From assembly GCA_947451735.1 (NCBI GenBank), contig CANGAY010000009.1, positions 1 through 10,469 on the forward strand: a stretch of 10,469 nt of DNA. Reading direction: 5' to 3'. The DNA comes from Actinomycetota bacterium. Its GTDB lineage: Bacteria; Actinomycetota; Thermoleophilia; Miltoncostaeales; Miltoncostaeaceae. The notes beneath the pieces were generated by a model. It did no database searches and was not told the DNA's origin. It saw only the letters and a program-made list of their open reading frames with translations. This document shows positions 1 to 10,469 of this stretch, one piece after another (within the stretch, counting starts at the first letter, position 1; every line of letters starts with the position of its first letter). A program made the translations under genes and the position numbers.

Positions 1-953
1 TACCCCTTGGCGCAGCGCATCTGGAACTGCACCACGGTCGGGTTCTTGGCCCTCGTGAGCGTCATCGCAACCATGCCGCCGTTGTTGCCCTTCGGCGTCA
101 TCGTCACGTTCACGAGCGAACGGTCCTTCCACTTGGGCGACATGTGGTTGGCCGGAAACTCCTGGACGGTGTAGGCGAGCTTGCCCTTGCGCACCATGCC
201 TGCGGGGCAGGTGCGGGTGTCGGTGCGCGTGACGTTCGTCTTCAGGGCGTACTCACGCGCGAGCGATGCCTTGCCCTTGGCGGTGTCGACGATGTCGAGC
301 TTTTTGTCGCGGATGCGCACCGGGGCGGCGTGTGCCACCTGGGCTGAGGACCGCTCCATCGAGTGCGATGCGCGCTCAAAGTTGGTGTTCCCGGACGCGG
401 TTGCGCCCGCAGAATTCACGCACGCGATGGCGGCCTGCCAGTAGCCGCTGCCGCCGGTGTTGCTCACAGTCGCGCCACCCGTGCCGTACTGCTGGGCACC
501 AGTGTTGCCCGTCGTCACGCTGCCGGTCCAGGCCCACTGATCGAGGTTTGCGCTCCCACTTCCGGTCTGCCATCCGATGGTGTTCCACGGGTCATTGCCG
601 GAATCGGTGCTCGCCAGTGCGTACCACTCGGGACTGTTGACGTATGCCTGTCCATCGAGGCTCCACGAGAGCCCCGGCGATCCTCCGGGGGCGTTGTTGG
701 AGCAACTGATCTGCTGGTTCTGGGTGTAGTCCTGATTGATCTGAATCCAGCCGGTCACTGACTGCATGCAGAAGGTGCCGATCTCGGTGCCGGCCATGGA
801 TGGCGTCCACGACTCCTGCGCGACGCCACACGTGCCCGAGCCGTTATCGCCCCAGTTCGATGAGTTGGCCGAGGCGCTGCTCGCACCAATCGCCAGGGCG
901 CCGAGTGCAAGTGGGATGGCGGTAAGTGCCACGCGGGTCCGCATCGTCGTCAT
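1..953 (-). CDS. Secreted two-domain protein, array copy 1 (3' edge at window boundary)
   Basis: Third gene of a tandem paralog array in transcription order; family not recognised. The reading frame is open from ATG at 953 to the left edge. The last two bases read TA in frame, so with the missing base the codon is probably a stop; the protein would be 317 residues, exactly the length of copy 2. A Sec signal peptide covers residues 1-29 (basic MTTMRTR start, hydrophobic core, ASA/N cleavage). The mature N-terminal domain (about 30-190) has Cys42, 62, 84 and 178 and the motifs WGDNGS, GWIQIN, TQNQQISCSNN and SLDGQAY. A charged linker (about 191-212, FERASHSMER) leads to the conserved C-terminal domain (213-317; Cys249, Cys314). 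There is no C-terminal anchor or sorting motif, so a freely secreted or cell-surface-associated protein with disulfides is inferred. Start choice: AAGGAG at 962-967 lies 8 nt upstream of ATG. An internal ATG at residue 4 is possible but worse placed. Confidence 0.85.
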   Translation of the reverse strand, partial: MTTMRTRVALTAIPLALGALAIGASSASANSSNWGDNGSGTCGVAQESWTPSMAGTEIGTFCMQSVTGWIQINQDYTQNQQISCSNNAPGGSPGLSWSLDGQAYVNSPEWYALASTDSGNDPWNTIGWQTGSGSANLDQWAWTGSVTTGNTGAQQYGTGGATVSNTGGSGYWQAAIACVNSAGATASGNTNFERASHSMERSSAQVAHAAPVRIRDKKLDIVDTAKGKASLAREYALKTNVTRTDTRTCPAGMVRKGKLAYTVQEFPANHMSPKWKDRSLVNVTMTPKGNNGGMVAMTLTRAKNPTVVQFQMRCAKG

Positions 954-961
954 GAGGGGTT

Positions 962-967
962 CTCCTT
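962..967 (-). promoter_or_regulatory. Shine-Dalgarno of array copy 1, fused to stop codon of copy 2
   Basis: Read on the minus strand, TAAGGAG contains both the TAA stop of copy 2 (966-968) and an AAGGAG Shine-Dalgarno, 8 nt before the ATG of copy 1. A ribosome terminating on copy 2 sits directly over this site, so reinitiation or translational coupling is likely (inference). The same arrangement recurs at 1928-1934. Confidence 0.8.
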
Positions 968-1919
968 ACGCCTTTCCGCAGCGCATCTGGAACTGCACCA
1001 CGGTCGGGTTCTTGGCCTTGGTGAGCGTCATCTCAACGATGCCGCCGTTCTTGCCCTTCGGCGTCATCGTCACGTTCACGAGGGAACGGTCCTTCCACTT
1101 GGGTGCCTTGTGGTTGGCCGGGAACTCCTGGACGGTGTAGGCGAGCTTGCCCTTGCGCACCATGCCTGTGGGGCAGGTGCGGGTGTCGGTGCGCGTGACG
1201 TTCGTCTTCAGCGCGTACTCGCGGGCAAGCGATGCCTTGCCGTGTGCCGTGTCGACGATGTCGAGCTTCCTGTCGCGCACGCGCGTGCGCGCGGTGTGTG
1301 CCACCTGCGTGGAGGGCCGCTCAAACGCGTGCGACCTGCGCTCGAAGCTTCCCTGCCCCGAGGCGCTTGCGCCCGCGGCGTTGACGCACGCGATGGCGGT
1401 CTGCCAGTAGCCGTTCCCGCTGAGGTTGGTCACCGACGCGCCACCCGTGCCGTATTGCCCGGAGGCCGTATTGCCCGTCGTCGTCCCACCGTTCCACGTC
1501 TCCTCGCGGAGGTACGCGCTGCCGCCGTTGCCGCTCTGCCATCCGACGTTGTCGTAGTCATCGCTCGACAGTTCGTGCACCCCATAGCCCAGCGCATACC
1601 AGGGCCCTGCGTTGTCATACGCCTGCCCATCGAGGCTCCACGAGAGCCCCGATGAGCTGTCGTTGTTGGAGCAGCTGATCTGCTGGTTCTGCGTGGCGTA
1701 GGAGTTGATCTGAATCCAGCCGGTCACCGACTGCATGCAGTAGGTGCCGAGCTCCGGGTCCGGGGAGCCGGGCCACGACGACTCGACGAAGTAGCAGGTC
1801 TGCGAGCCGTTATCGCCCCACTGGTTGGTGTTGGCAGACGCGCTGGTTGCGCCAACCGCAAGGGCGCCAAGCGCGAGAGGAAGTGCGGCAAGTGCCGCGC
1901 GGGTACGCATCTTCGTCAT
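966..1919 (-). CDS. Secreted two-domain protein, array copy 2
   Basis: Complete middle member of the tandem family, 317 residues, function unknown. Signal peptide 1-29 (MTKMRTR start, cleavage ASA/N30). N-terminal domain about 30-190 with Cys42, 61, 83 and 178. It carries the family motifs WGDNGS, CMQSVTGWIQIN, TQNQQISCSNN, GLSWSLDGQAY, QYGTGGA and GYWQTAIACVN. A linker rich in Arg, Glu and His (SFERRSHAFER) is followed by the C-terminal domain 213-317 with Cys249 and Cys314. By hand alignment the C-terminal 105 residues match copy 1 at 93 positions and copy 3 at 96, whereas the mature N-terminal part matches copy 1 at only roughly 55-60%. The mature N-terminal domain is rich in Asn, Gln, Ser, Thr, Gly and Trp, as in extracellular beta-rich proteins; a binding or surface-layer role is only a guess. 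The stop TAA forms part of the next gene's Shine-Dalgarno. AAGGAG at 1928-1933 supports the ATG at 1919. Confidence 0.93.
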   Translation of the reverse strand: MTKMRTRAALAALPLALGALAVGATSASANTNQWGDNGSQTCYFVESSWPGSPDPELGTYCMQSVTGWIQINSYATQNQQISCSNNDSSSGLSWSLDGQAYDNAGPWYALGYGVHELSSDDYDNVGWQSGNGGSAYLREETWNGGTTTGNTASGQYGTGGASVTNLSGNGYWQTAIACVNAAGASASGQGSFERRSHAFERPSTQVAHTARTRVRDRKLDIVDTAHGKASLAREYALKTNVTRTDTRTCPTGMVRKGKLAYTVQEFPANHKAPKWKDRSLVNVTMTPKGKNGGIVEMTLTKAKNPTVVQFQMRCGKA

Positions 1920-1927
1920 GAAGGGGT

Positions 1928-1933
1928 CTCCTT
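1928..1933 (-). promoter_or_regulatory. Shine-Dalgarno of array copy 2, fused to stop codon of copy 3
   Basis: TAAGGAG on the minus strand holds the stop of copy 3 (1932-1934) and the AAGGAG site of copy 2, again with 8 nt to the ATG and a 12-nt intergenic gap. The near identity with the 954-968 junction shows that the junction was duplicated together with the gene. Confidence 0.8.
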
Positions 1934-2897
1934 ATGCCTTGGCGCAGCGCATCTGGAACTGCACCACGGTTGGGTTCTTGGCCCGGGTGAGGGTCATCTC
2001 AACCCTGCCGGCGTTCTTGCCCTTGGGCGTCATCGTGACGTTCACCAGTGACCGGTTCTTCCACTTCGGCGACTTGCCGTTGGCCGGGAACTCCTGGACG
2101 GTGTAGGCGAGCTTGCCCTTGCGCACCATGCCCGTGGGGCAGGTGCGGGTGTCGGTGCGCGTGACGTTCGTCTTGAGCGCGTACTCACGGGCAAGCGATG
2201 CCTTGCCCTTGGCCGTGTCGACGATGTCGAGCTTCCTGTCGCGGGCGCGCGGGGCGGAGGCGTTGGCCACATGCGTGGAGCGGCGCTCCATCGAGTGCGC
2301 GGTGCGCTCATACGGCGACTGCCCGGACTGGGTCGCGCCTGCGGCGTTCACACAGGCGATGGCGGTCTGCCAATAGCCATCATCACTCCAGTTGGTCACC
2401 GAAGCGCCACCGGCACCGTACGCCCCCGTGGCCGTGCTGCCGGTCGTCACGCCGCCGCTCCACGCCTCACCAGTGAGGGATGCGTTCCCGCCGTTGCCGG
2501 TCTGCCAACCAATGTTGTTGTACGGGCCGCCGGCGTCGGGGTCGCCACTGCCGCTGTACGCCAGCGCGTACCAAGGGCCCGCATCGACGTACGACTGCCC
2601 ATCAAGACTGTACGAGAGCCCCGACGAACTGTCGTTGTTGGCGCAGCTGATCTGCTGGTTCTGGGTCGTGAGCCCGTTGATCTGAATCCAGCCCGTCACC
2701 GACTGCATGCAGTAGGTGCCGAGTTCTGCATTGGCCTGGGTACCCGGGTACCACATCCCCTCGGCATACGTGCAGGTGGTCGAACCATTGTCGCCCCACT
2801 GCTGTGAGTTGGCCGAGGCGCTGGTGGCACCAATCGCGAGGGCGCCGAGGGCAATTGGCAGCGCGATCCACGCGGAACGGGTCAACAGCGGGCGCAT
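1932..2897 (-). CDS. Secreted two-domain protein, array copy 3 (first gene of the array)
   Basis: First array member in transcription order, 321 residues, function unknown. Signal peptide 1-29 (MRPLLTR start, hydrophobic core, ASA/N30). N-terminal domain about 30-196 with Cys42, 63, 85 and 182. Linker PYERTAHSMERRSTHVANAS, then the conserved C-terminal domain 217-321 with Cys253 and Cys318. All six cysteines align with those of the other two copies, and none of the three proteins has an extra one. The frame is open further upstream into prmC, to 3059. I chose ATG 2897 because only this start gives a proper N-terminal signal peptide equivalent to those of the siblings, and because AAGGA at 2904-2908 sits 6 nt before it. 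It lies 61 bp downstream of prmC with a hairpin between, so it may be read through from the translation operon or have its own promoter, which I could not identify. Confidence 0.92.
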   Translation of the reverse strand: MRPLLTRSAWIALPIALGALAIGATSASANSQQWGDNGSTTCTYAEGMWYPGTQANAELGTYCMQSVTGWIQINGLTTQNQQISCANNDSSSGLSYSLDGQSYVDAGPWYALAYSGSGDPDAGGPYNNIGWQTGNGGNASLTGEAWSGGVTTGSTATGAYGAGGASVTNWSDDGYWQTAIACVNAAGATQSGQSPYERTAHSMERRSTHVANASAPRARDRKLDIVDTAKGKASLAREYALKTNVTRTDTRTCPTGMVRKGKLAYTVQEFPANGKSPKWKNRSLVNVTMTPKGKNAGRVEMTLTRAKNPTVVQFQMRCAKA

Positions 2898-2903
2898 TGG
2901 GGG

Positions 2904-2908
2904 TCCTT
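2904..2908 (-). promoter_or_regulatory. Shine-Dalgarno deciding the start of array copy 3
   Basis: AAGGA on the minus strand lies 6 nt before ATG 2897. This favours the 321-residue product over a 375-residue reading that would overlap the end of prmC by about 100 nt and bury the signal peptide inside the protein. Confidence 0.75.
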
Positions 2909-2918
2909 GGAAGGGGAA

Positions 2919-2947
2919 CGGTCGCCGCCAGTAGAGCAGCGCGACCG
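2919..2947 (-). terminator. Hairpin between prmC and array copy 3 (possible weak terminator or attenuator)
   Basis: Perfect 7-bp arms CGGTCGC (minus-strand 2947-2941) and GCGACCG (2925-2919) enclose a 15-nt loop. No U-tract follows; the next minus-strand bases are TTCCCC. It starts 11 nt after the prmC stop. It could attenuate read-through from rpmE-prfA-prmC into the array, stabilise the 5' end of an array transcript, or be chance in a GC-rich sequence. Confidence 0.35.
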
Positions 2948-2958
2948 GATGCCTGCAA

Positions 2959-3810
2959 CTAGGTGCGGTGCGCCGCGACCGCACGCACGATTCCCGCGAG
3001 ATCCGGCCGGGTGACGCACTGGGCGAAACCGCCCGCCTCGAGCATCTCACCCACCGCATCTGCCTGCCCCTGCCCCACCTCCAGAACGATCAGTCCGCCC
3101 GGCTCAAGGACGCCTGCGGCCTCCGCGATGACCCGCGCGTGATCCTCGGTGCCGACGGGCCCAGACACCAGGGCCTCTTCGGGTTCGTGCCGCAGGGCGG
3201 GAAACCGCTCGAGATCCTCCGGCACCAGATACGGCGGGTTGCTCACCACGACGTCGAAGCGCTCGCCGGCGACCGCAGTCATGCCGTCGCTCTGCAGCAG
3301 GCGCACGCGGTCGGCGAGCGCTGAGTTGGCGGCCAGGTTGCGCTCGGCCACCGCGAGGGCCGCGGGGCTCCGCTCGAGACCGACGACGGTCACGTCGGGG
3401 CGCTGGTCGGCCACCGACAGCGCGATGGCCCCTGAGCCGGTGCCCCAGTCGACCATGCGTGCGCCCTGCGGGGCCATCTCGACGAGGAGGTCGACGATCA
3501 CCTCTGTGTCGGGACGCGGCACCAGCACGTCGGGGGTCACCTCGAGTTCGAGCCGCCCGAACGATCGCGTGCCGGTGATGTGGGCGACGGGCACCATCTC
3601 ACCCCGACGCGCGACCAGCGCACGGCAGGCCCCCAGTTCATCGGGCGTGAGCGGCCGGTCGCCCTCGGTGTAGAGCGCGATGCGCTCGAGCCCCAGCGCG
3701 TGGCCGATGAGGATCTCGGCATCGAGCCTCGGGGTGTCCGACCCCTTGCCCTCCAGCCACGTGGTCGAACGCTGAAGCACTTCCGTGATGGTCAGTACTT
3801 CAGTTGACAC
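2959..3810 (-). CDS. prmC: Peptide chain release factor N5-glutamine methyltransferase PrmC/HemK
   Basis: A cytoplasmic SAM-dependent enzyme that methylates the glutamine of the GGQ loop in release factors. The protein has 283 residues, normal for the family. An N-terminal helical substrate-recognition region (about 1-90) is followed by VPRPDTE (97-103), the SAM-binding glycine motif DWGTGSGAIAL (121-131) and the catalytic NPPY (191-194), which clamps the glutamine amide. The start is GTG at 3810, 14 nt after the prfA stop, with a weak GAGG upstream. The next in-frame Met is at residue 72, inside the conserved fold, so it is not an alternative. Its neighbour prfA encodes its substrate, a classical arrangement. 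NPPY is shared with other N-methyltransferases, but length, N-terminal domain and context specify PrmC. Confidence 0.96.
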   Translation of the reverse strand: MSTEVLTITEVLQRSTTWLEGKGSDTPRLDAEILIGHALGLERIALYTEGDRPLTPDELGACRALVARRGEMVPVAHITGTRSFGRLELEVTPDVLVPRPDTEVIVDLLVEMAPQGARMVDWGTGSGAIALSVADQRPDVTVVGLERSPAALAVAERNLAANSALADRVRLLQSDGMTAVAGERFDVVVSNPPYLVPEDLERFPALRHEPEEALVSGPVGTEDHARVIAEAAGVLEPGGLIVLEVGQGQADAVGEMLEAGGFAQCVTRPDLAGIVRAVAAHRT

Positions 3811-3824
3811 CGGGGTGCGCCTCG

Positions 3825-4919
3825 TCAGTCGTTACTGGCAGCGGCCAGGTCGGCCTCCTGCTGCTCGAGCAACAGGCGGCGCTCCTCGCCCTGCAGGGCG
3901 TCGGTGATGGCCTGCAACTGGCCCTGCAGCACTTGCTCCTTCAGGGGGATCGTCACGCCGATGCGGTGATCGGTCACGCGGTTCTGCGGGTAGTTGTAGG
4001 TGCGCACCTTCTCGGAGCGGTCGCCGCTGCCCACGTGTGCCTGACGCGTACTGCGCAGCGCGGCCTCCTGCTCGGCCTGCGCCTTCTCGAGCAACCGGGC
4101 GCGCAGCACGCGCATGGCGCGCTCCTTGTTCTGAAGCTGACTCTTCTCGTCCTGCATCGACACCACGACGCCCGTGGGGATGTGCGTGATGCGCACGGCC
4201 GAGTCGGTGGTGTTCACGCTCTGGCCACCCGGGCCGCTGGATCGGTACACGTCGATCTTCAGGTCGTTCTGGTCGATGGTCACATCAACCTCGTCGGCCT
4301 CGGGCAGCACGGCGACCGTGGCGGTCGAGGTGTGGATGCGCCCCTGGCTCTCGGTGGCCGGCACGCGCTGCACGCGGTGCACGCCGCCCTCATGCTTGAA
4401 CACGCTGAACGCGCCCTCGCCCTTGACGGCGAAGGTGGCCTCCTTCAGGCCACCGGCGTCGGCCTCGCTCACGTCGAGCAGTTCAACCTTGTAGCCACGG
4501 GCGGTGGCATAGCGCTGGTAGATGTCGAGCAGGTCGCGCGCGAACAGCGCGGCCTCTTCCCCGCCGGTGCCGCCACGGATCTCGACGATGACATCGCGGG
4601 CGTCGTTGGGGTCGGGCTCCACCATGGCCGTGCGGATGAGGGGCTCCAGCTCCTCCACCTCGGCCTCGGCTTCCTTCAGCAGCGCGCGGAAGTCCTCGTC
4701 CTCGCCCTCGGTCAGCATCTCGCGGGCCTCGGCCGCGCGGCCCGACGCATCGCGCCAGCGCGCCGACAACTGGGCGGCCTCCTCCAGACCCGCATACCTG
4801 CGGGTGAGGTCGGCGTACCGCTTGCGATCGCTCGCGACGTCGGGGTCCGACAGCGCCTGCGACAGCTCGGCACGCGTGCGCTCGACCTGGGAGACCAGGC
4901 CCTCGACGCCGCCGCTCAT
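3825..4919 (-). CDS. prfA: Peptide chain release factor 1 (RF1)
   Basis: Terminates translation at UAA and UAG in the ribosomal A site. The protein has 364 residues, the usual length. The helical N-terminal domain (about 1-100) is followed by the decoding domain with PAT at 187-189, the RF1 tripeptide; RF2 would have SPF. The peptidyl-transferase-centre loop is GPGGQ (229-233), and Gln233 is the expected PrmC target. The lysine/arginine-rich C-terminal domain is intact. ATG at 4919 lies 9 nt after the rpmE stop without a strong Shine-Dalgarno, which suggests translational coupling to rpmE. The prmC gene follows after 14 nt. The stops seen in this window are a mixture of TAA, TAG and TGA. Confidence 0.97.
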
Positions 4920-4928
4920 GTCAGTTGG

Positions 4929-5135
4929 CTACTGCTGCGCCTGCTGGCGCTTGCGGTTGAAGCGCTCCACGCGGCCACCGGTGTCCACCAGCTTCTGCTT
5001 GCCGGTGTAGAAGGGGTGGCACTGCGAGCAGATCTCCACGCGGATCTCGGGGGTCGTCGACCGGGTCTTGAACTCGTTGCCGCACGTGCAGCTGACGGTG
5101 GCGACGACGTACTCGGGGTGAATCTCGGCCTTCAC
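4929..5135 (-). CDS. rpmE: 50S ribosomal protein bL31, zinc-binding type
   Basis: Structural protein of the large ribosomal subunit, 68 residues from a GTG start at 5135. The cysteines at 16, 18, 37 and 40 (CTC and CSQC) form the zinc-ribbon set of the C+ paralog, as opposed to the zinc-independent form made under zinc starvation. HPFYTGKQK and DTGGRVERF are family signatures. The frame stays open upstream to 5234, but that extension (MCDGCGRG onwards) has no counterpart in bL31. The purine-rich GAGAGGGA just before GTG supports the short start. Gene order rpmE-prfA-prmC is common in Gram-positive-type genomes; the rho gene often found upstream in actinobacteria is absent here, replaced by etfA and a hairpin. 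A promoter should lie in 5136-5197, but I found no convincing -35/-10 pair. Confidence 0.95.
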
Positions 5136-5197
5136 GTTCCCTCTCGATGCTCTCGTTGTGCGTGGCCCGTCCGGTGCCACGGAGGCGGCATGATAGC

Positions 5198-5221
5198 GCG
5201 GCCGGGGCGAACCCCGGCCGC
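5198..5221 (-). terminator. GC-rich hairpin downstream of etfA
   Basis: Perfect 10-bp arms GCGGCCGGGG and CCCCGGCCGC enclose a 4-nt loop that reads TTCG on the minus strand. It starts 22 nt after the etfA stop and lies 62 bp before the rpmE start, the right place to end the etfBA transcript. There is no U-run after it, which is common for actinobacterial terminators. The stem is symmetrical, so strand assignment rests on gene context. Confidence 0.65.
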
Positions 5222-5243
5222 AGCCATCACACACGCACGATGA

Positions 5244-6218
5244 CTAGCCCTGGCGGGACTTCACCAGGTCGGTGAGCTTGGGGACGATGTCGAACAGGTC
5301 GCCCACCACGCCAAGGTCCGCAAACTGGAAGATGGGCGCGTCCTCGTCCTTGTTGATCGCGATGATCACGTCGGACGTCTGCATGCCCACCTTGTGCTGC
5401 ACGGCGCCGGAGATGCCGCAGGCGATGTACAGGTTGGGAGACACGGTCTTGCCGGTCTGCCCCACCTGGTTCGGGTGCGGGTACCAGCCGGCGTCGACCG
5501 CGGCGCGCGAGGCACCCACGGCGGCACCGAGTGCCGAGGCGAGCGCCTCGACAGTGGCGAAGTTCTCAGGTGCGCCCAGACCGCGGCCACCGGAGACGAT
5601 GATGCTGGCCTCTTCCAGACCGATCTTGCCGGCCTCGGCGGGCTTGCGGGCCGTCACCTTGGCGGCCAGCGCGGCGTCGGAGATCTCCGGCGTCACCGTG
5701 ACCACCTCGGCGGAGCCACCCGACTCGGATGCGGCGAACGAGTTGGGGCGCACCAGCGCGATCTGCGGGCCACCATTCCACTCGGCGTCCACGAGGTTCT
5801 GACCACCGAAGGCCGGTCGGCGGGCACGGAGCGCGGAGCCGTTGGCCGAGAGATCGATGGAGTCGCTGTTCAGGCCGGCGCCGAGGCGGGCGGCAAGCGC
5901 AGCGGCGATGTCACGGCCGAGGGCCGTGCCGCCCACGAGGATGGCCGAGAAGTCGTTCTCGCCCTGCAGCTTCGCGATGACGTCGACGTGCGGTGCGGCA
6001 AGACCGGTGCCGAGCGCCTCATTGTCGGCGACGAACACCTTCTCGGCGCCGTAGGCGCCGAGGTCACCGGCATTGCCGGAGATGCCGGAGCCGGCGACCA
6101 GCGCGGTCAGCGGGCCGCCGAGGGAGTCCTTGAGTTCGCGTGCCTTCGAGAGAGTCTCGAGGCTCACGCGACGGAAGTTGCCGCCCGAGTTCTCGGCGAC
6201 GACGAGGATGCCTGCCAT
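5244..6218 (-). CDS. etfA: Electron transfer flavoprotein alpha subunit
   Basis: With EtfB it forms the soluble FAD-containing heterodimer that accepts electrons from acyl-CoA and related dehydrogenases and passes them to ETF:quinone oxidoreductase. It has 324 residues. The N-terminal adenine-nucleotide-hydrolase-like domain starts MAGILVVAE. The C-terminal FAD domain shows SGGRGLG (209-215), VGQTGK (252-257), the ETF-alpha signature LYIACGISGAVQH (263-275) and INKDEDAPIF (288-297). ATG at 6218 is preceded by AAAGGAA at a good distance. It follows etfB by 30 nt and ends before a strong hairpin, so etfB-etfA is the end of a transcription unit. No N-terminal ferredoxin-like extension and no linked bcd or fixCX genes are present, so the ordinary respiratory ETF fits better than a bifurcating or nitrogen-fixation form. 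Confidence 0.96.
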   Translation of the reverse strand: MAGILVVAENSGGNFRRVSLETLSKARELKDSLGGPLTALVAGSGISGNAGDLGAYGAEKVFVADNEALGTGLAAPHVDVIAKLQGENDFSAILVGGTALGRDIAAALAARLGAGLNSDSIDLSANGSALRARRPAFGGQNLVDAEWNGGPQIALVRPNSFAASESGGSAEVVTVTPEISDAALAAKVTARKPAEAGKIGLEEASIIVSGGRGLGAPENFATVEALASALGAAVGASRAAVDAGWYPHPNQVGQTGKTVSPNLYIACGISGAVQHKVGMQTSDVIIAINKDEDAPIFQFADLGVVGDLFDIVPKLTDLVKSRQG

Positions 6219-6248
6219 GTGCTGGGTTCCTTTCGGTCCGAGGAGCGG

Positions 6249-7031
6249 TTAGATGAGCTTCTTCTCGACGAGGTAGTCGAAGATGACCTGGGCGCCGTTG
6301 CCCTCATCCTTGACCACCTGGCCGGCGGTGCGTGCCGGGGGCGTCTCGATGCCCACGACCTTGGTCTTGGCCCCGGCCTCGCCCACGTCACCGGCACCCA
6401 GGCCGATGTCGCCGAGCGACTTGACGTCCTGCGGCTTCTTCTTGGCACCCATGATGCCCTTGAGCGACGGGTAGCGCGGCTCGTTGATGGCCTTGGTCAC
6501 GGAGACCACGGCGGGCAGCGGGGCCTCGACGGTGTCGATGCCGTCGTCGCTCTGGCGCTCGACGGTGATGGAGCCGCCGTTGACGGCCAGGCTGTTGGCC
6601 GAGGTCACCCAGGTGCGGCCACTGACCTCACCGAGGGTGGCGGCCAGCACGCCCGAACGGGCATCCGTGCTCTCGGAGCCCAGCAGCACCAGCTCGGCGC
6701 CGGTCTCCTCGATGGCCTTGGCCAGGGCACGCGCGGTGCCCAGGTAGTCCGACCCGGCCGCGGCGGCGTCCGACACCAGCACGAGGCGGTCGGCACCCAT
6801 GGCAAGACCCTGACGCAGGGACTCCACGGCCTTCTCCGGACCGAGCGAGACGAGGATCACCTCGTCGGCGGTACCGGCTTCCTTGAGGCGAACCGCCTCC
6901 TCGACCGCGTACTTGTCGAACTCATTGAGCATGCGGTCGCCCTCGTCACGGACGAGGCGGAAGGTGCTCGGGTCAATCCGCTTCTCAGCGGTGGTGTCCG
7001 GCACCTCTTTGACGCAGACGGCGATCTTCAC
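6249..7031 (-). CDS. etfB: Electron transfer flavoprotein beta subunit
   Basis: Partner of EtfA; in this family beta binds AMP and contacts the dehydrogenase through a recognition loop. It has 260 residues from a GTG start at 7031, preceded on the minus strand by AGGAG 9 nt upstream. MKIAVCVKEVPDT is the typical N-terminus. Residues 159-180 carry the ETF-beta signature (RQSDDGIDTVEAPLPAVVSVT), followed by the recognition-loop region with RYPSLKGIMGAKKKP (186-200). The stop is TAA, 30 nt before etfA. An 83-nt gap separates it from the upstream enoyl-CoA hydratase gene. Co-transcription with that gene is plausible, because both belong to acyl-CoA oxidation. Confidence 0.96.
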   Translation of the reverse strand: MKIAVCVKEVPDTTAEKRIDPSTFRLVRDEGDRMLNEFDKYAVEEAVRLKEAGTADEVILVSLGPEKAVESLRQGLAMGADRLVLVSDAAAAGSDYLGTARALAKAIEETGAELVLLGSESTDARSGVLAATLGEVSGRTWVTSANSLAVNGGSITVERQSDDGIDTVEAPLPAVVSVTKAINEPRYPSLKGIMGAKKKPQDVKSLGDIGLGAGDVGEAGAKTKVVGIETPPARTAGQVVKDEGNGAQVIFDYLVEKKLI

Positions 7032-7114
7032 GAAGACGGGCTCCTGGAAGTGTTCGTTCTACCGGGGATCAACGGCCGGTGACACTACCAGCGCCTTGGG
7101 CGTTTGCGGGGGGT

Positions 7115-7894
7115 CTACTGACCCCGATCGGCAACGGCCCAACCCGGGGGGCGCTTCTCGAGGAAGGCGGTCATGCCCTCCCTGCGCTCGGGGTTGTCGA
7201 ACTGGCGCGCGAAGGCGGCGGCCTCGGCGTCGAGCAGCGGGTCGCGGTCGCCGAGCGCCCCGTGCACCAGCTGCTTCGACAGTGCGACGGCCGACGGCGA
7301 CTTGGTGGCGATCTCGTCGCCCAGTGCCACCGCGGCGTCCAGCAGTTCGTCGGCGGGGTGCACGGCGGTCACGAGCCCCGCGGCCAGCGCCTGATCGGCG
7401 GTGACCATGGCGCCGGTGAGGATCATCTGCATGGCGAAGCCCTCGCCCGTGATGCGCGGCAGCCGCTGCGTGCCACCCCACCCGGGCGGGATGCCCAGCG
7501 CCACCTCGGGCTGCGCCAGTTTGGCGCCGTCGGCCGCGATGCGGATGTCGCACGCGAGCGACACCTCGCACCCGCCACCGAGCGCGAACCCGTTGATGGC
7601 CGCGATGACCGGCACCGACAGGGCCTCGATGTCGCGGCACAGCCCGTGCCCCTTGGCGGCGAAGGCCAGCGCGGCGTCGTGGTCCATCTTCACCATCTCG
7701 GTGATGTCGGCACCGGCGCAGAACGCGCGGCCCGCGCCGGTGAGCACCACGGCGCGCACCTGCGGGTCGTTGGCCGCCGCGTCCAGGGCCACCCGCAGCT
7801 CGTCAATCATGTCGGGCGAAAGCGCGTTGAGCGCCTCCTGCCGGTCGAGCACCAGGATCTGGACCGACCCCCGGCGTTCGAAGACGATGCCCAC
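7115..7894 (-). CDS. Enoyl-CoA hydratase / crotonase family protein
   Basis: Crotonase-fold enzyme, probably adding water across 2-enoyl-CoA in fatty-acid or related acyl-CoA degradation. It has 259 residues, normal size. CAGADI (59-64) and GFALGGG (102-108) build the CoA pocket and oxyanion hole. Glu110 (in GGGCEVSLACDIRIA) and Glu130 (in QPEVALGI) occupy the positions of the two catalytic glutamates of classical hydratases, which favours hydratase over isomerase or other crotonase reactions. The exact substrate cannot be read from sequence, so no gene symbol is given. The start is GTG at 7894, separated by a single base from the TAG stop of the cobalamin-binding protein, which implies translational coupling. 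etfB follows 83 nt after its stop. Confidence 0.93.
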   Translation of the reverse strand: MGIVFERRGSVQILVLDRQEALNALSPDMIDELRVALDAAANDPQVRAVVLTGAGRAFCAGADITEMVKMDHDAALAFAAKGHGLCRDIEALSVPVIAAINGFALGGGCEVSLACDIRIAADGAKLAQPEVALGIPPGWGGTQRLPRITGEGFAMQMILTGAMVTADQALAAGLVTAVHPADELLDAAVALGDEIATKSPSAVALSKQLVHGALGDRDPLLDAEAAAFARQFDNPERREGMTAFLEKRPPGWAVADRGQ

Positions 7895-7895
7895 G

Positions 7896-8291
7896 CTAGG
7901 CGGCCACGCGCGACTCGAGGAACGTCACCATGTCGTCAACGGGTGCGCCCGGGGTGTACACCGCGGCCACGCCCAGCCCGCGAAGCTCCTCGGCGTCGTC
8001 GGTGGGGATGGTGCCGCCCACGATCACCAGCACGTCGTCGGCCCCCTCGGCGGCCAGCAGCTCCATCACGCGGGGCACCAGCGTCATGTGCGCGCCGGAC
8101 AGGATGGAGAGGCCCACCGCGTCGGCGTCCTCCTGCACCACGGTGGCCACCACCTGCTCGGGCGTCTGGTGCAGGCCCGTGTAGATGACCTCCATGCCGG
8201 CGTCCCGCAGCGACCGGGCCACGATCTTGGCGCCGCGGTCATGACCATCAAGACCGGGCTTGGCGATGACAATGCGAATTGGTCGTCCCAT
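7896..8291 (-). CDS. Stand-alone cobalamin-binding domain, small subunit of an acyl-CoA mutase
   Basis: A 131-residue Rossmann-like B12-binding domain matching the C-terminal domain or small subunit of methylmalonyl-CoA mutase and relatives (for example 2-hydroxyisobutyryl-CoA mutase). The base-off/His-on motif DxHxxG is D15-G-H17-D-R-G20, His17 being the lower cobalt ligand. SxL is S62-I-L64 and the GG pair lies at 92-93 in VGGTIP. The N-terminus RIVIAKPGLDGHDRG is highly typical. The catalytic TIM-barrel subunit is not in this window and must be encoded elsewhere if the protein forms a mutase. ATG at 8291 lies 15 nt after the upstream stop with no Shine-Dalgarno. The TAG stop is 1 nt from the next gene's GTG. 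Which acyl-CoA is rearranged cannot be told from this domain alone. Confidence 0.93.
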   Translation of the reverse strand: MGRPIRIVIAKPGLDGHDRGAKIVARSLRDAGMEVIYTGLHQTPEQVVATVVQEDADAVGLSILSGAHMTLVPRVMELLAAEGADDVLVIVGGTIPTDDAEELRGLGVAAVYTPGAPVDDMVTFLESRVAA

Positions 8292-8299
8292 GGGCGGGC

Positions 8300-8305
8300 A
8301 GGATA
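8300..8305 (-). promoter_or_regulatory. Possible -10 element for a leaderless transcript of the B12-binding gene
   Basis: TATCCT on the minus strand lies 8 nt before ATG 8291, fitting the TANNNT spacing to a start site at or next to the A of ATG. The gene has no Shine-Dalgarno. A poor -35-like ATGACC sits at 8325-8330 with a 19-bp spacer. Weak evidence. Confidence 0.25.
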
Positions 8306-8306
8306 C

Positions 8307-9458
8307 CTACTGCGCGGGAACGCCGGTCATGGCGGTGACCCCGTACTGGGGATCGGACCACTGCACCGCGCACGGCGTGGAGCCATCGGCCGGGCACAGC
8401 GAGATGACGCCCTGGGCCCGCTGCGCGGTGACGGTGCCCTGCCCCACCCAGATGCCCGCTGCTGACGGCACCACCGCGGTGACGGCGCTCTCGGCGGCCT
8501 CGATGGGCGAGTCGGCCGGTGCCGGCGGGGGCGCGGGAAGCGCGATGGGCGTGCACGAGGCGTCGCACCGCAGTAGGCGCCCCACCTTGCCGTCCGCGTC
8601 CGGCGCGTCGAGCGAGAGCCCGGCGTACACGGTGTTGGCACCCGGAAGCGCGGCAACCGATCGCACCTGTGCCCCGGGCACCGTGGTCACCGTGGTGCAG
8701 CGGCCGCGCGACGGACCGGCCAGCGGGCACGACAGCACCGCGCCCGCATCCGTGCCGGCGAACACACGGGTGGTGCCGTTGCTGTCAACCGACAGCACGC
8801 CGGACCCGGCCCTGGCGAAGGTGGTGCACAGGCTGAGCGACGCGCCGCCGGTGGTGCACGAGAGAATGCGTCCGTCGTCGAGGCCCGCGTAGAGGGTGCC
8901 CTTGGCGAGCACGAGCGACGCCACGTAGGCGTTTGGCCGCGGCGTGCCCACGTTGCGGCAGGCACCGCCTGCGGTGGCCTGCGGGCAGCGCCAGATGTCG
9001 CCACTGCTGCCGCCGTCGAAGCCGCCGTTTGTCCCCACGTACACGGAGGGCGTCGCATCCTTCGCCGCCGCGGCATCGGCGGCGATGGCGGTGATGCCCG
9101 GGATCTTCCCGATCGCGTCGCAACTCACGGCCCGGTCGGGATCGCAGGTGAGCAGTTCACCCGTGAACACGCCCACCAGCAACTTGCCATCGGACACCTG
9201 CATGCTGCGCACGGGGCCCATCGCCCCATTGTTGGCGTCGCACGATGCGCTGCCCGCGGCACCGCACCGCAGCAGATCGGGCTTGCCGCCGCGGCCCGAC
9301 TGGGCCGCGGCAACGATGCCGTCGAGCGCCGGTGCGCCCACCACGCCCGCCGCGGCGCGCGTGGTGGCACCCGCATCGGACGACGAACCGCAGCCCGCGG
9401 CGATGAGTCCCGTGGTGGCAACCAGCATCAGGCCAATGGAAAGAAGGGCACGCCGCAT
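8307..9458 (-). CDS. Lipoprotein with predicted seven-bladed beta-propeller, one Cys pair per blade
   Basis: Not a family I recognise. The 383-residue protein starts at ATG 9458 with AGGAG about 8 nt upstream. Signal sequence 1-22 ends in IAAG/C23, a plausible lipobox followed by GSSS, so it is probably an outward-facing lipoprotein. Residues about 46-383 contain seven degenerate repeats. Most have a [VLI][YFW]xG strand, then a strand ending in LLxC or IxxC, and a second Cys 4-10 residues later. The Cys pairs are 65/73, 105/113, 158/167, 201/211, 244/254, 298/302 and 355/363; there are no unpaired cysteines apart from Cys23. Seven repeats with WD/PQQ-like spacing suggest a closed propeller with a disulfide pinning one turn in each blade (inference). 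Propellers of this sort usually bind ligands or proteins; no catalytic motif is visible. It is upstream of the B12/crotonase/etf genes by 15 nt and divergent from pepA. Confidence 0.85.
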   Translation of the reverse strand: MRRALLSIGLMLVATTGLIAAGCGSSSDAGATTRAAAGVVGAPALDGIVAAAQSGRGGKPDLLRCGAAGSASCDANNGAMGPVRSMQVSDGKLLVGVFTGELLTCDPDRAVSCDAIGKIPGITAIAADAAAAKDATPSVYVGTNGGFDGGSSGDIWRCPQATAGGACRNVGTPRPNAYVASLVLAKGTLYAGLDDGRILSCTTGGASLSLCTTFARAGSGVLSVDSNGTTRVFAGTDAGAVLSCPLAGPSRGRCTTVTTVPGAQVRSVAALPGANTVYAGLSLDAPDADGKVGRLLRCDASCTPIALPAPPPAPADSPIEAAESAVTAVVPSAAGIWVGQGTVTAQRAQGVISLCPADGSTPCAVQWSDPQYGVTAMTGVPAQ

Positions 9459-9495
9459 CGATCAGCTCCTGGATGAGGGGCGGGGGGGTTGCGGA

Positions 9496-9501
9496 ACCAT
9501 A
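9496..9501 (-). promoter_or_regulatory. Possible -10 element for the propeller lipoprotein
   Basis: TATGGT on the minus strand fits TANNNT and would place a transcript start near 9489, about 30 nt ahead of the ATG at 9458 and upstream of its Shine-Dalgarno. No good -35 at 16-19 bp was found; TTCAAC at 9523-9528 is 21 bp away. It overlaps one copy of the repeated 9-mer described separately. Confidence 0.3.
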
Positions 9502-9550
9502 CCCACGCGCGTGGCGGTGGGTGTTGAATGGCACCGCGCCACATACCCAC
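9498..9550. repeat. Repeated 9-mer and inverted repeats in the divergent promoter region
   Basis: CATACCCAC occurs at 9498-9506 and again at 9542-9550, 44 bp apart (about four helical turns). Between them, GTGGGT at 9517-9522 is an inverted partial copy pairing with ACCCAC at 9501-9506, and CACGCGCGTG at 9504-9513 is a perfect 10-bp palindrome. The placement between two divergent genes fits an operator, but no known regulator motif was recognised and chance is not excluded. Confidence 0.35.
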
Positions 9551-9570
9551 CGACGAATGGACACCGCAGC

Positions 9571-10469
9571 ATGGACGTCACCAAGAGCCGCACCGCCGAC
9601 CCCTCCCGCATCCGCGCCGACGTCGTGGTCATCCCCGTGGCCGACCCCCCGGGCACGCCGGCCGGACCCCTTGCGCAGGTCGACTCCGCGCTGGGCGGCC
9701 TCGTGTCGGCGGTCATCAAGGACGGCGAGGTCACCGGCAAGGCTGGTCAGGTGCGCGTGCTGCACAGCCGTGGCGACATCCCGGCCAAGCGCGTGCTGCT
9801 CGTGGGAGTGGGTGCCGACCCCGACCGCGCCGCATGGAGTGCGGCCGGTGCGGCTGCTGCCCGCACCGCCCGCGACCTGGGCGCAACCAAGGCGGCCCTC
9901 GTGGCGGGCGACGACGTGGACGCGGGCGACCTGCGCGCCATGGCCGAGGGCCTCGCCACCGGCGCGTGGCGGCTGCAGGGATTCCGCTCGGGCAAGGGCG
10001 ACGGCACGCAGGGGCGTCCGTCGCAGATCGCCGTGGCGGGCAACATCACCCCGAAGGACGCCGCCCGGGTGCAGGCCACCGCGGAGGCCATCTCGCTGGC
10101 GCGCGAACTGGCCGAGACCCCGGCCAACCACATGACCCCCACCATCCTCGCCAAGCGCGCCGAGACGGTGGCCGCGGGGTCGCGCAACCTCAGCATCGAG
10201 GTGCTGGGGCCGCGCGAACTGACGCGGCTGAAGGCCGGCGGGCTGCTTGCCGTGGCCCAGGGCTCGGCCGAGCCGCCGCGCATGATCGTCATGCGCTACC
10301 GCCCGCCGAAGGGCGTGAAGAAGGGTCGCGAGGTGCTGGGCCTGGTGGGCAAGGGCGTCACCTTCGACAGCGGCGGAATCTCCATCAAGCCCTCCGCCGG
10401 TATGGAGGAGATGAAGATGGACATGGCGGGTGGCGCAGCCGTCATCGCCGCCATGGGCCTGATCGCCGA
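9571..10469 (+). CDS. pepA: Leucyl aminopeptidase, M17 family (3' end beyond window)
   Basis: Cytosolic metallo-aminopeptidase that removes N-terminal residues from peptides with two metal ions. The first 299 residues are in the window; a full M17 protein is about 480-500 residues, so roughly the last 40% is missing. The N-terminal macro-like domain runs from 1 to about 165. Then ETPANHMTP (182-190) leads into the catalytic domain with GKGVTFDSGG (260-269) and MKMDMAGGAAV (281-291). Lys261, Asp266 and Asp284 match metal ligands and Lys273 the catalytic lysine of E. coli PepA. The remaining DTDAEGR-type ligands lie beyond the edge. ATG 9571 is my start; its Shine-Dalgarno is weak. An in-frame GTG at 9511 would add 20 residues without resemblance to PepA. 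It is divergent from the lipoprotein gene and the only plus-strand gene. Confidence 0.95.
   Translation, partial: MDVTKSRTADPSRIRADVVVIPVADPPGTPAGPLAQVDSALGGLVSAVIKDGEVTGKAGQVRVLHSRGDIPAKRVLLVGVGADPDRAAWSAAGAAAARTARDLGATKAALVAGDDVDAGDLRAMAEGLATGAWRLQGFRSGKGDGTQGRPSQIAVAGNITPKDAARVQATAEAISLARELAETPANHMTPTILAKRAETVAAGSRNLSIEVLGPRELTRLKAGGLLAVAQGSAEPPRMIVMRYRPPKGVKKGREVLGLVGKGVTFDSGGISIKPSAGMEEMKMDMAGGAAVIAAMGLIA

Follow-up and report, generated by a model that had tools for sequence, protein, structure and literature searches.

The window analysed here (the whole 10,469-nucleotide stretch, positions 1 to 10,469 of the Actinomycetota contig CANGAY010000009.1) carries a tandem array of three genes, whose products, the paralogs A, B and C, join an acidic, variable N-domain that is nearly free of Lys and Arg to a constant, basic C-domain. 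Two properties of these proteins are new observations here: the charge polarity of the N- vs. the C-domain and, as read from the sequences, the mosaic evolution of the two domains, in which the N-domain appears to have been exchanged between gene copies and species. All three paralogs share one layout: a signal peptide is followed by the N-domain, which spans about 155 residues and has four cysteines, and a variable linker then leads to the C-domain, whose roughly 105 residues include two cysteines. By eye, all three signal peptides end at ASA/N30, and the cysteines are C42, C61, C83, and C178 in the N-domain and C249 and C314 in the C-domain (B numbering). None of the six cysteines varied in an alignment of 28 sequences, in one of 74 sequences each was either invariant or conserved to at least 90%, and 99 of 105 aligned members had exactly six cysteines after residue 25. 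Open reading frames (ORFs), alignments and conserved cysteines thus confirmed the initial annotation, which had described three tandem secreted six-cysteine, two-domain paralogs cut at ASA/N30; it had also rightly placed the left edge in the stop of copy A, of which only 'TA' is present. The features are as follows (aa, amino acids; pI, isoelectric point; loops are putative, being drawn from variability).

3-953 (listed 1..953), minus strand: paralog A, probably the last copy, 317 aa, ORF with its stop cut by the contig end ('TA' visible)
3..317, minus strand: constant basic C-domain of A, pI 10.5
402..866, minus strand: variable N-domain of A, residues 30-184, no Lys/Arg, pI 4.05
954..965, minus strand: 12-bp spacer from B to A, GGAGAACCCCTC, with a ribosome-binding-like GGAG
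966..1919, minus strand: paralog B, 317 aa, ORF
969..1283, minus strand: constant basic C-domain of B, residues 213-317, pI 10.4
1368..1832, minus strand: variable N-domain of B, residues 30-184, one Lys/Arg, pI 4.05
1455..1508, minus strand: putative hypervariable loop 3 of B, residues 138-155
1545..1595, minus strand: putative hypervariable loop 2 of B, residues 109-125, length 7-23 across 105 members
1752..1793, minus strand: putative hypervariable loop 1 of B, residues 43-56, from column entropy
1920..1931, minus strand: 12-bp spacer from C to B, GGAGACCCCTTC
1932..2897, minus strand: paralog C, the first copy, 321 aa from the ATG at 2897, signal peptide of the first-position type
1935..2249, minus strand: constant basic C-domain of C, pI 10.9
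2334..2810, minus strand: variable N-domain of C, residues 30-188, no Lys/Arg, pI 4.05
2959..3810, minus strand: prmC (PrmC_N match and synteny), the conserved upstream neighbour that marks the slot

The charge polarity was found throughout the family, all sequences of which are from metagenome bins or metagenome proteins. Among 105 aligned members, the N-domain had a pI of 4.07 (sd 0.21) with a mean of 0.79 Lys+Arg in about 155 residues, and the C-domain had a pI of 10.79 with a mean net charge of +16.7. A diverged branch, about 25% identical to the array branch, showed the same in 11 of 11 members tested, with 1-3 Lys+Arg in 160 residues of the N-domain and a C-domain pI of 11.7-12.0. As a control, the lowest Lys+Arg count per 150-residue stretch was determined for 113 ORFs from 16 sequences, called approximately by codon-position GC content. 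A minimum of 0-2 was found for the 18 detected family members and for only 1 of the 95 other ORFs, which encodes a pentapeptide-repeat protein, and ORFs not labelled as family by the script had a median of 10. Nine of the 18 family labels were flagged by the script and nine were assigned by reading, while copy 1 of the relative G014 was missed by the ORF picker.

Sequence variation was concentrated in the N-domain. Pairwise identity among the 105 members averaged 57% in N-domains vs. 75% in C-domains, and the pairs of A, B, and C had 62-69% vs. 89-91%, supporting the annotated division into one constant and one variable domain. An N-domain identity of only 62-69% also excludes that the three copies are an assembly duplication, which had been named as a possible refutation. 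Both entropy and length changes concentrate in residues 43-56, 109-125, and 138-155 and in the linker, and the rest forms an invariant frame that includes W, Q, and N residues, e.g., W34, Q77, Q79, W172, Q173, and N180.

The two domains were then compared by phylogeny in 14 sequences. The N-domain data rejected the C-domain tree (approximately unbiased (AU) test, p 1.9e-44), the C-domain data rejected the N-domain tree (p 4.6e-5), and our own implementation of a permutation recombination test of the pairwise homoplasy index (PHI) type gave p 0.003. In the C tree, copies were grouped by species clade, with G014 copy 3 inside the clade of the window, while the N tree paired copies across species (G014_1/G016_1, G014_2/G016_2, C/G010_1, and A/G014_3). 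Conflicting phylogenies of variable and constant parts, one criterion of a recombining surface-antigen family, are thus found here.

Synonymous divergence (dS) was estimated by Nei-Gojobori on short segments. Between A and G014 copy 3, dS was 0.08 for the N-domain and 0.14 for the C-domain, while five flanking genes had a dS of 0.45-0.86; the N-domains were 98% identical in DNA, and only 10 scattered codons, 8 of them synonymous, differed over residues 27-210. On its 18-kb contig, G014 copy 3 is an internal gene flanked by another copy and by glyA, and its C-domain DNA was 92, 90, and 85% identical to those of A, B, and C in the window, and 80 and 81% to those of G014 copies 1 and 2. The relation of copy C to G010 copy 1 looks vertical (dS 0.35 for the N-domain, 0.21 for the C-domain, and 0.19-0.49 for the flanks). 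Within genomes, the C-domain dS was lower than the N-domain dS in all six pairs computed, which came from four genomes and left out pairs from G205 and with G014 copy 3: 0.19 vs. 0.69 for A/B, 0.26 vs. 0.96 for B/C, 0.31 vs. 0.84 for A/C, 0.32 vs. 0.54 for G014_1/2, 0.25 vs. 0.80 for G016_1/2, and 0.39 vs. 1.85 for L023_1/2.

Signal peptides were also considered. First-position copies in four genomes have a signal peptide of the form MRPP/MRPL..RS (looser in G014), while six later copies have an MTxxRTRAA-like one. N-domains 94-97% identical to that of B follow the first-copy type in the metagenome proteins P0001-P0003, and P0066 carries the N-domain of G016 copy 1 (99%) behind a signal peptide of only 55% identity. 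In the single-gene branch, the N-domain was better conserved than the C-domain in 15 of 17 pairs with N-domains at least 84% identical; the C-domain was mostly the better conserved in more distant pairs (e.g., L011/L058, 65 vs. 78), which limits the contrast with the array to close relatives.

With somewhat less than even confidence, we favor the reading that the array is a small unit of wall-held display proteins, with the basic C-domain as anchor and the acidic N-domain as an exchangeable outer part. The signal peptide, the charge polarity and the mosaic history are observed in the sequences, and wall binding, exposure and a ligand would follow from them as below. Judged from the signal peptide by eye rather than by a predictor, the protein would be exported, and its conserved cysteines would form disulfides. 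The basic C-domain would hold it non-covalently on anionic wall polymers, and the N-domain would face outward and bind, or shield against, something variable, such as a phage, a grazer, a neighbor or a surface. Homologous recombination anchored in the conserved DNA of the signal peptide and the C-domain may move N-domain alleles between copies and species, possibly by way of natural transformation. LytR-CpsA-Psr ligases, which attach anionic wall polymers, were found in all eight genomes tested, and a ComEC-type Competence match in seven of the eight (missing in the incomplete genome of the window itself). More tentatively, lake actinobacteria with small genomes could harbor a class of display proteins, charge-bipolar and so far undescribed, whose constant basic part anchors them to the wall and whose Lys/Arg-free, loop-diversified N-domain is an exchangeable module for recognition or escape; its alleles would circulate between species via one fixed chromosomal slot, that is, an antigenic-variation-like repertoire without a host. 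The initial annotation had suggested surface structures or binding repertoires, which fits the charge polarity and the mosaic evolution, a fit at the level of sequence.

Several observations weigh against this reading. The C-domain dS was lower than the N-domain dS in two of three cross-genome pairs as well (C/G010_1, 0.21 vs. 0.35; B/G014_3, 0.20 vs. 0.68), and copies in the C tree cluster with their species clade and not strictly with their genome; within-genome gene conversion is therefore not separable from within-clade exchange or slower synonymous change, and the pattern points to exchange or homogenisation within clades rather than to proven gene conversion. The second genus has no signal-peptide difference between positions. 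Exchange between array positions is indicated by a single N-domain cluster out of 15, in which B groups with the unplaced metagenome proteins P0001-P0003 and both signal-peptide types are represented; the typing left 41 of 105 signal peptides unclassed. Nonsynonymous divergence (dN) was below dS in nine of nine N-domain comparisons, which gives no direct indication of positive selection, and diversification of the N-domain may therefore proceed through exchange of standing alleles rather than rapid new substitution. Of 14 control genomes, 7 also had LytR-CpsA-Psr ligases and 10 had ComEC-type matches, and the ligases were likewise found in G018, where the family gave no match. Further, DNA, polysaccharide or another cell would be equally possible binding targets of the basic domain. 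Finally, all genomes are metagenome bins, and some mosaic proteins may be assembly chimeras, above all those from short contigs (P0003).

Among the alternatives, a self-assembling extracellular matrix or fiber is unlikely though not negligible: acidic N- and basic C-domains would bind head to tail and polymerise into a coat or filament without an outside ligand, and N-domain variation would reflect drift or phage escape. Charge segregation kept across members only about 25% identical agrees with this, but a head-to-tail interface should constrain the N-domain surface, which nevertheless has three freely varying stretches, two of which differ in length by many residues. It is more doubtful that the paralogs are secreted enzymes, inhibitors or nutrient-binding proteins differing in specificity. 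The W, Q, and N residues of the invariant frame would suit such a role; however, no catalytic motif was recognised by eye, no convincing family or PDB sequence match was obtained, and the extreme Lys/Arg depletion would be left unexplained.

A secreted interbacterial effector or bacteriocin, whose basic C-domain would dock on target walls and whose variable N-domain would be the active part, is improbable. The paralogs are secreted, cysteine-bearing, variable and recombining, as such a role would suggest, but the whole slots of G014, G016, and G003 have no room for an immunity gene (small ORFs were not looked for in the second-genus flanks), PADLOC gave no match, and Pfam matches were weak only. 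The annotated option of an interbacterial factor consequently finds little support. Polymorphic toxin systems consist of secreted proteins with one constant and one variable part, and the window proteins resemble them in this; unlike them, the variable part here is one N-domain family on a fixed frame, with no toxin family match and no space for immunity genes in those three slots. Equally improbable is that the mosaic pattern is an artefact of metagenome assembly, with conserved C-domains leading assemblers to join unrelated N- and C-domains: although all sequences are from metagenome-assembled genomes (MAGs) or metagenomes, the window contig ends at copy A, and P0001 and P0003 have N-domains 100% but C-domains 74% identical, G014 copy 3 lies well inside its contig, differs from A at scattered, mostly synonymous codons, and the gap between C- and N-domain dS recurs in all four genomes with within-genome pairs computed.

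The closest functional parallel, by analogy and not as a homolog, would be the plan of the Lactobacillus surface-layer (S-layer) proteins. Lactobacillus brevis S-layer proteins are described as dividing into a conserved portion of high pI and an acidic portion that varies more (PMC2571106), and Lactobacillus S-layer proteins with a positively charged, teichoic-acid-binding domain (PMC11181022). Like these proteins (SA/SlpA, CbsA; L. brevis SlpA), the window family is secreted and two-part, with a conserved, positively charged and putatively wall-binding part and a more variable remainder; the S-layer combination of signal peptide (by eye), conserved basic part and variable part was found in it. 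Unlike them, it has six conserved cysteines, an N-domain nearly free of Lys/Arg, a tandem arrangement, and copies shared across species. No convincing sequence match to S-layer families or solved S-layer proteins was obtained in Pfam, NCBIfam, or PDB, so the likeness is one of working only.

Recombining surface-antigen families, such as Campylobacter fetus sap and Neisseria opa, consist of paralogs in which the DNA ends are constant and recombination diversifies a variable part. The window paralogs likewise have constant ends, a variable part and recombination, but their carriers appear environmental rather than host-adapted pathogens, and just three tandem copies were found in the window's own genome (64.5% complete). 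A diversity-generating retroelement is probably not involved, as none of the 11 family-carrying genomes tested, several of them incomplete bins, had a match to the reverse transcriptase family RVT_1. Secreted paralogs that combine constant with variable parts and exchange cassettes are known best from pathogens that face immunity. In uncultured actinobacteria that probably dwell in lakes, a single slot with this pattern would make the drivers of surface diversity in free-living bacteria (phages, grazers, neighbors) testable; the array looks like a natural surface-display repertoire, with a variable half nearly without positive charge, in a small prmC-glyA locus with a clear empty-site comparison.

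That no known family is recognised in the array proteins, as annotated, was borne out by the searches, and on sequence grounds they define a family without a convincing entry in the libraries used. The three array proteins had no Pfam match at E up to 1. The 74-member alignment gave weak matches of one or two members only against Pfam and NCBIfam and two weak matches against PDB sequences (E 0.56-0.58), PHROGs gave one weak match (E 0.2), and PADLOC gave none for seven proteins. No paper concerning the family was found among open-licence papers searched by title or abstract start. Searching proteins with the full-length query gave 99 homologs, for none of which a Pfam domain had been precomputed; the 91 of at least 285 aa all align over both domains. 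The search with the C-terminal 105 residues that had been proposed to find other N-terminal partners revealed none that was foreign: 94 of 94 C-domain matches were already among the 99 homologs (candidates 0.55-1.75x query length). The variation therefore lies within one N-domain family.

The family is narrowly distributed, with strong profile matches confined, among the genomes sampled, to two genera of a single class. Profile searches found members in 14 of 399 sampled genomes of the class, from two genera (g1, g28) of two families, and in 11 of 42 genomes of the order, all of one genus; the second genus had members in 3 of 17 genomes and its family in 3 of 146. Of 396 genomes sampled phylum-wide, 3 gave matches; one of these matches was weak, covered 51 residues (E 6.3e-4) and is regarded as chance. 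The diverged single-gene branch occurs outside the array slot in G006, G012, G013 (two loci), and G014, and a profile search with five of its members found eight proteins among the best 8000 candidates scored. The carriers are probably lake-dwelling, uncultured actinobacteria; the record of one names Erken, which is among the lakes in PMC8121793, and the others presumably share such a habitat. The MAG proteins P0101 (G014), P0021, and P0092 are labelled 'Acidobacteria bacterium' (KGQ95, KGR19), probably wrongly; G014 belongs to the genus of the window genome, and copy B shares 62% identity with P0021 and 56% with P0092.

The slot was surveyed in 20 genomes of the window genus, and its order is prmC-[1 to 3 copies]-glyA. 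At least one copy adjoins prmC or glyA in seven genomes, with three copies in the window and in G014, two in G016, one in G003, at least two in G010, and at least one each in G004 (split over two contigs) and G019 (at a contig edge). In the slots of G014 and G016, copies with 12-bp spacers are followed by glyA about 90 bp on, and in G003 the single copy is followed by glyA. GGAG-bearing 12-bp spacers join the internal copies, each later copy being preceded by GGAG. Nine genomes of the genus have adjacent prmC and glyA, whose match ends lie 82-127 bp apart, and show no match to the family; a prmC match was not obtained in G002 and G005. G008 (L049:2340-2810) has a 467-bp prmC-glyA gap without a family match, possibly a decayed insert. 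N-terminally truncated remnants were found at L032:1350-1721 (G017 slot) and in P0097, a 176-aa metagenome protein, which suggests decay through N-domain loss. The prmC tree of 17 genomes separated seven carriers, the remnant included, from ten non-carriers with a support of only 66, consistent with, but not proving, a single gain at the slot.

The suggestion that the array may continue leftwards was not sustained, since the slot in relatives holds one to three copies followed by glyA and A matches the last copy of G014; the array thus probably ends at three, and exactly three copies, all tandem, were found in the window's own genome. At window positions 1-2, the contig stops at 'TA', the point at which the TAAGGAG of internal copies and the TAG TACTCGC of last copies (in G014, before glyA) diverge, as if assembly halted at a branch from strains with different copy numbers.

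Upstream of the array lie prmC, prfA, an ORF at 4929-5234 read as rpmE (not family-tested), two electron transfer flavoprotein (ETF) genes, and an enoyl-CoA hydratase gene. Right after the prmC stop, TTGCAG-17 bp-TCTACT was noted by eye at window 2930-2958, which may be the array's own promoter; G016 has TTGTGC-17-TCTACT with equal spacing at the counterpart site and G014 has TTGACG-17-TACCGT. A sigma-70 consensus scan of window positions 1-3900 returned no promoter-like site, this candidate included.

Outside the prmC-glyA slot, secreted-looking pentapeptide-repeat genes lie directly upstream of family members, on the same strand, at G013:C73, G014:C66, and G205:C178 (L035:7686-8678, L081:6045-7049, and L076:4618-5367), the one in L035 being very Lys/Arg-poor. 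None was found upstream at G012:C116, G013:C88, and G006:C19 (G390 and G349 could not be judged). As pentapeptide-repeat genes were present in 14 of 14 genomes tested, with 1-76 matches each, a partner role is a lead only. Elsewhere in the window, a gene at 8307-9458, for which no Pfam match was convincing (best E 0.059), encodes a 383-aa product with a lipoprotein-like start and several cysteine-bearing stretches.

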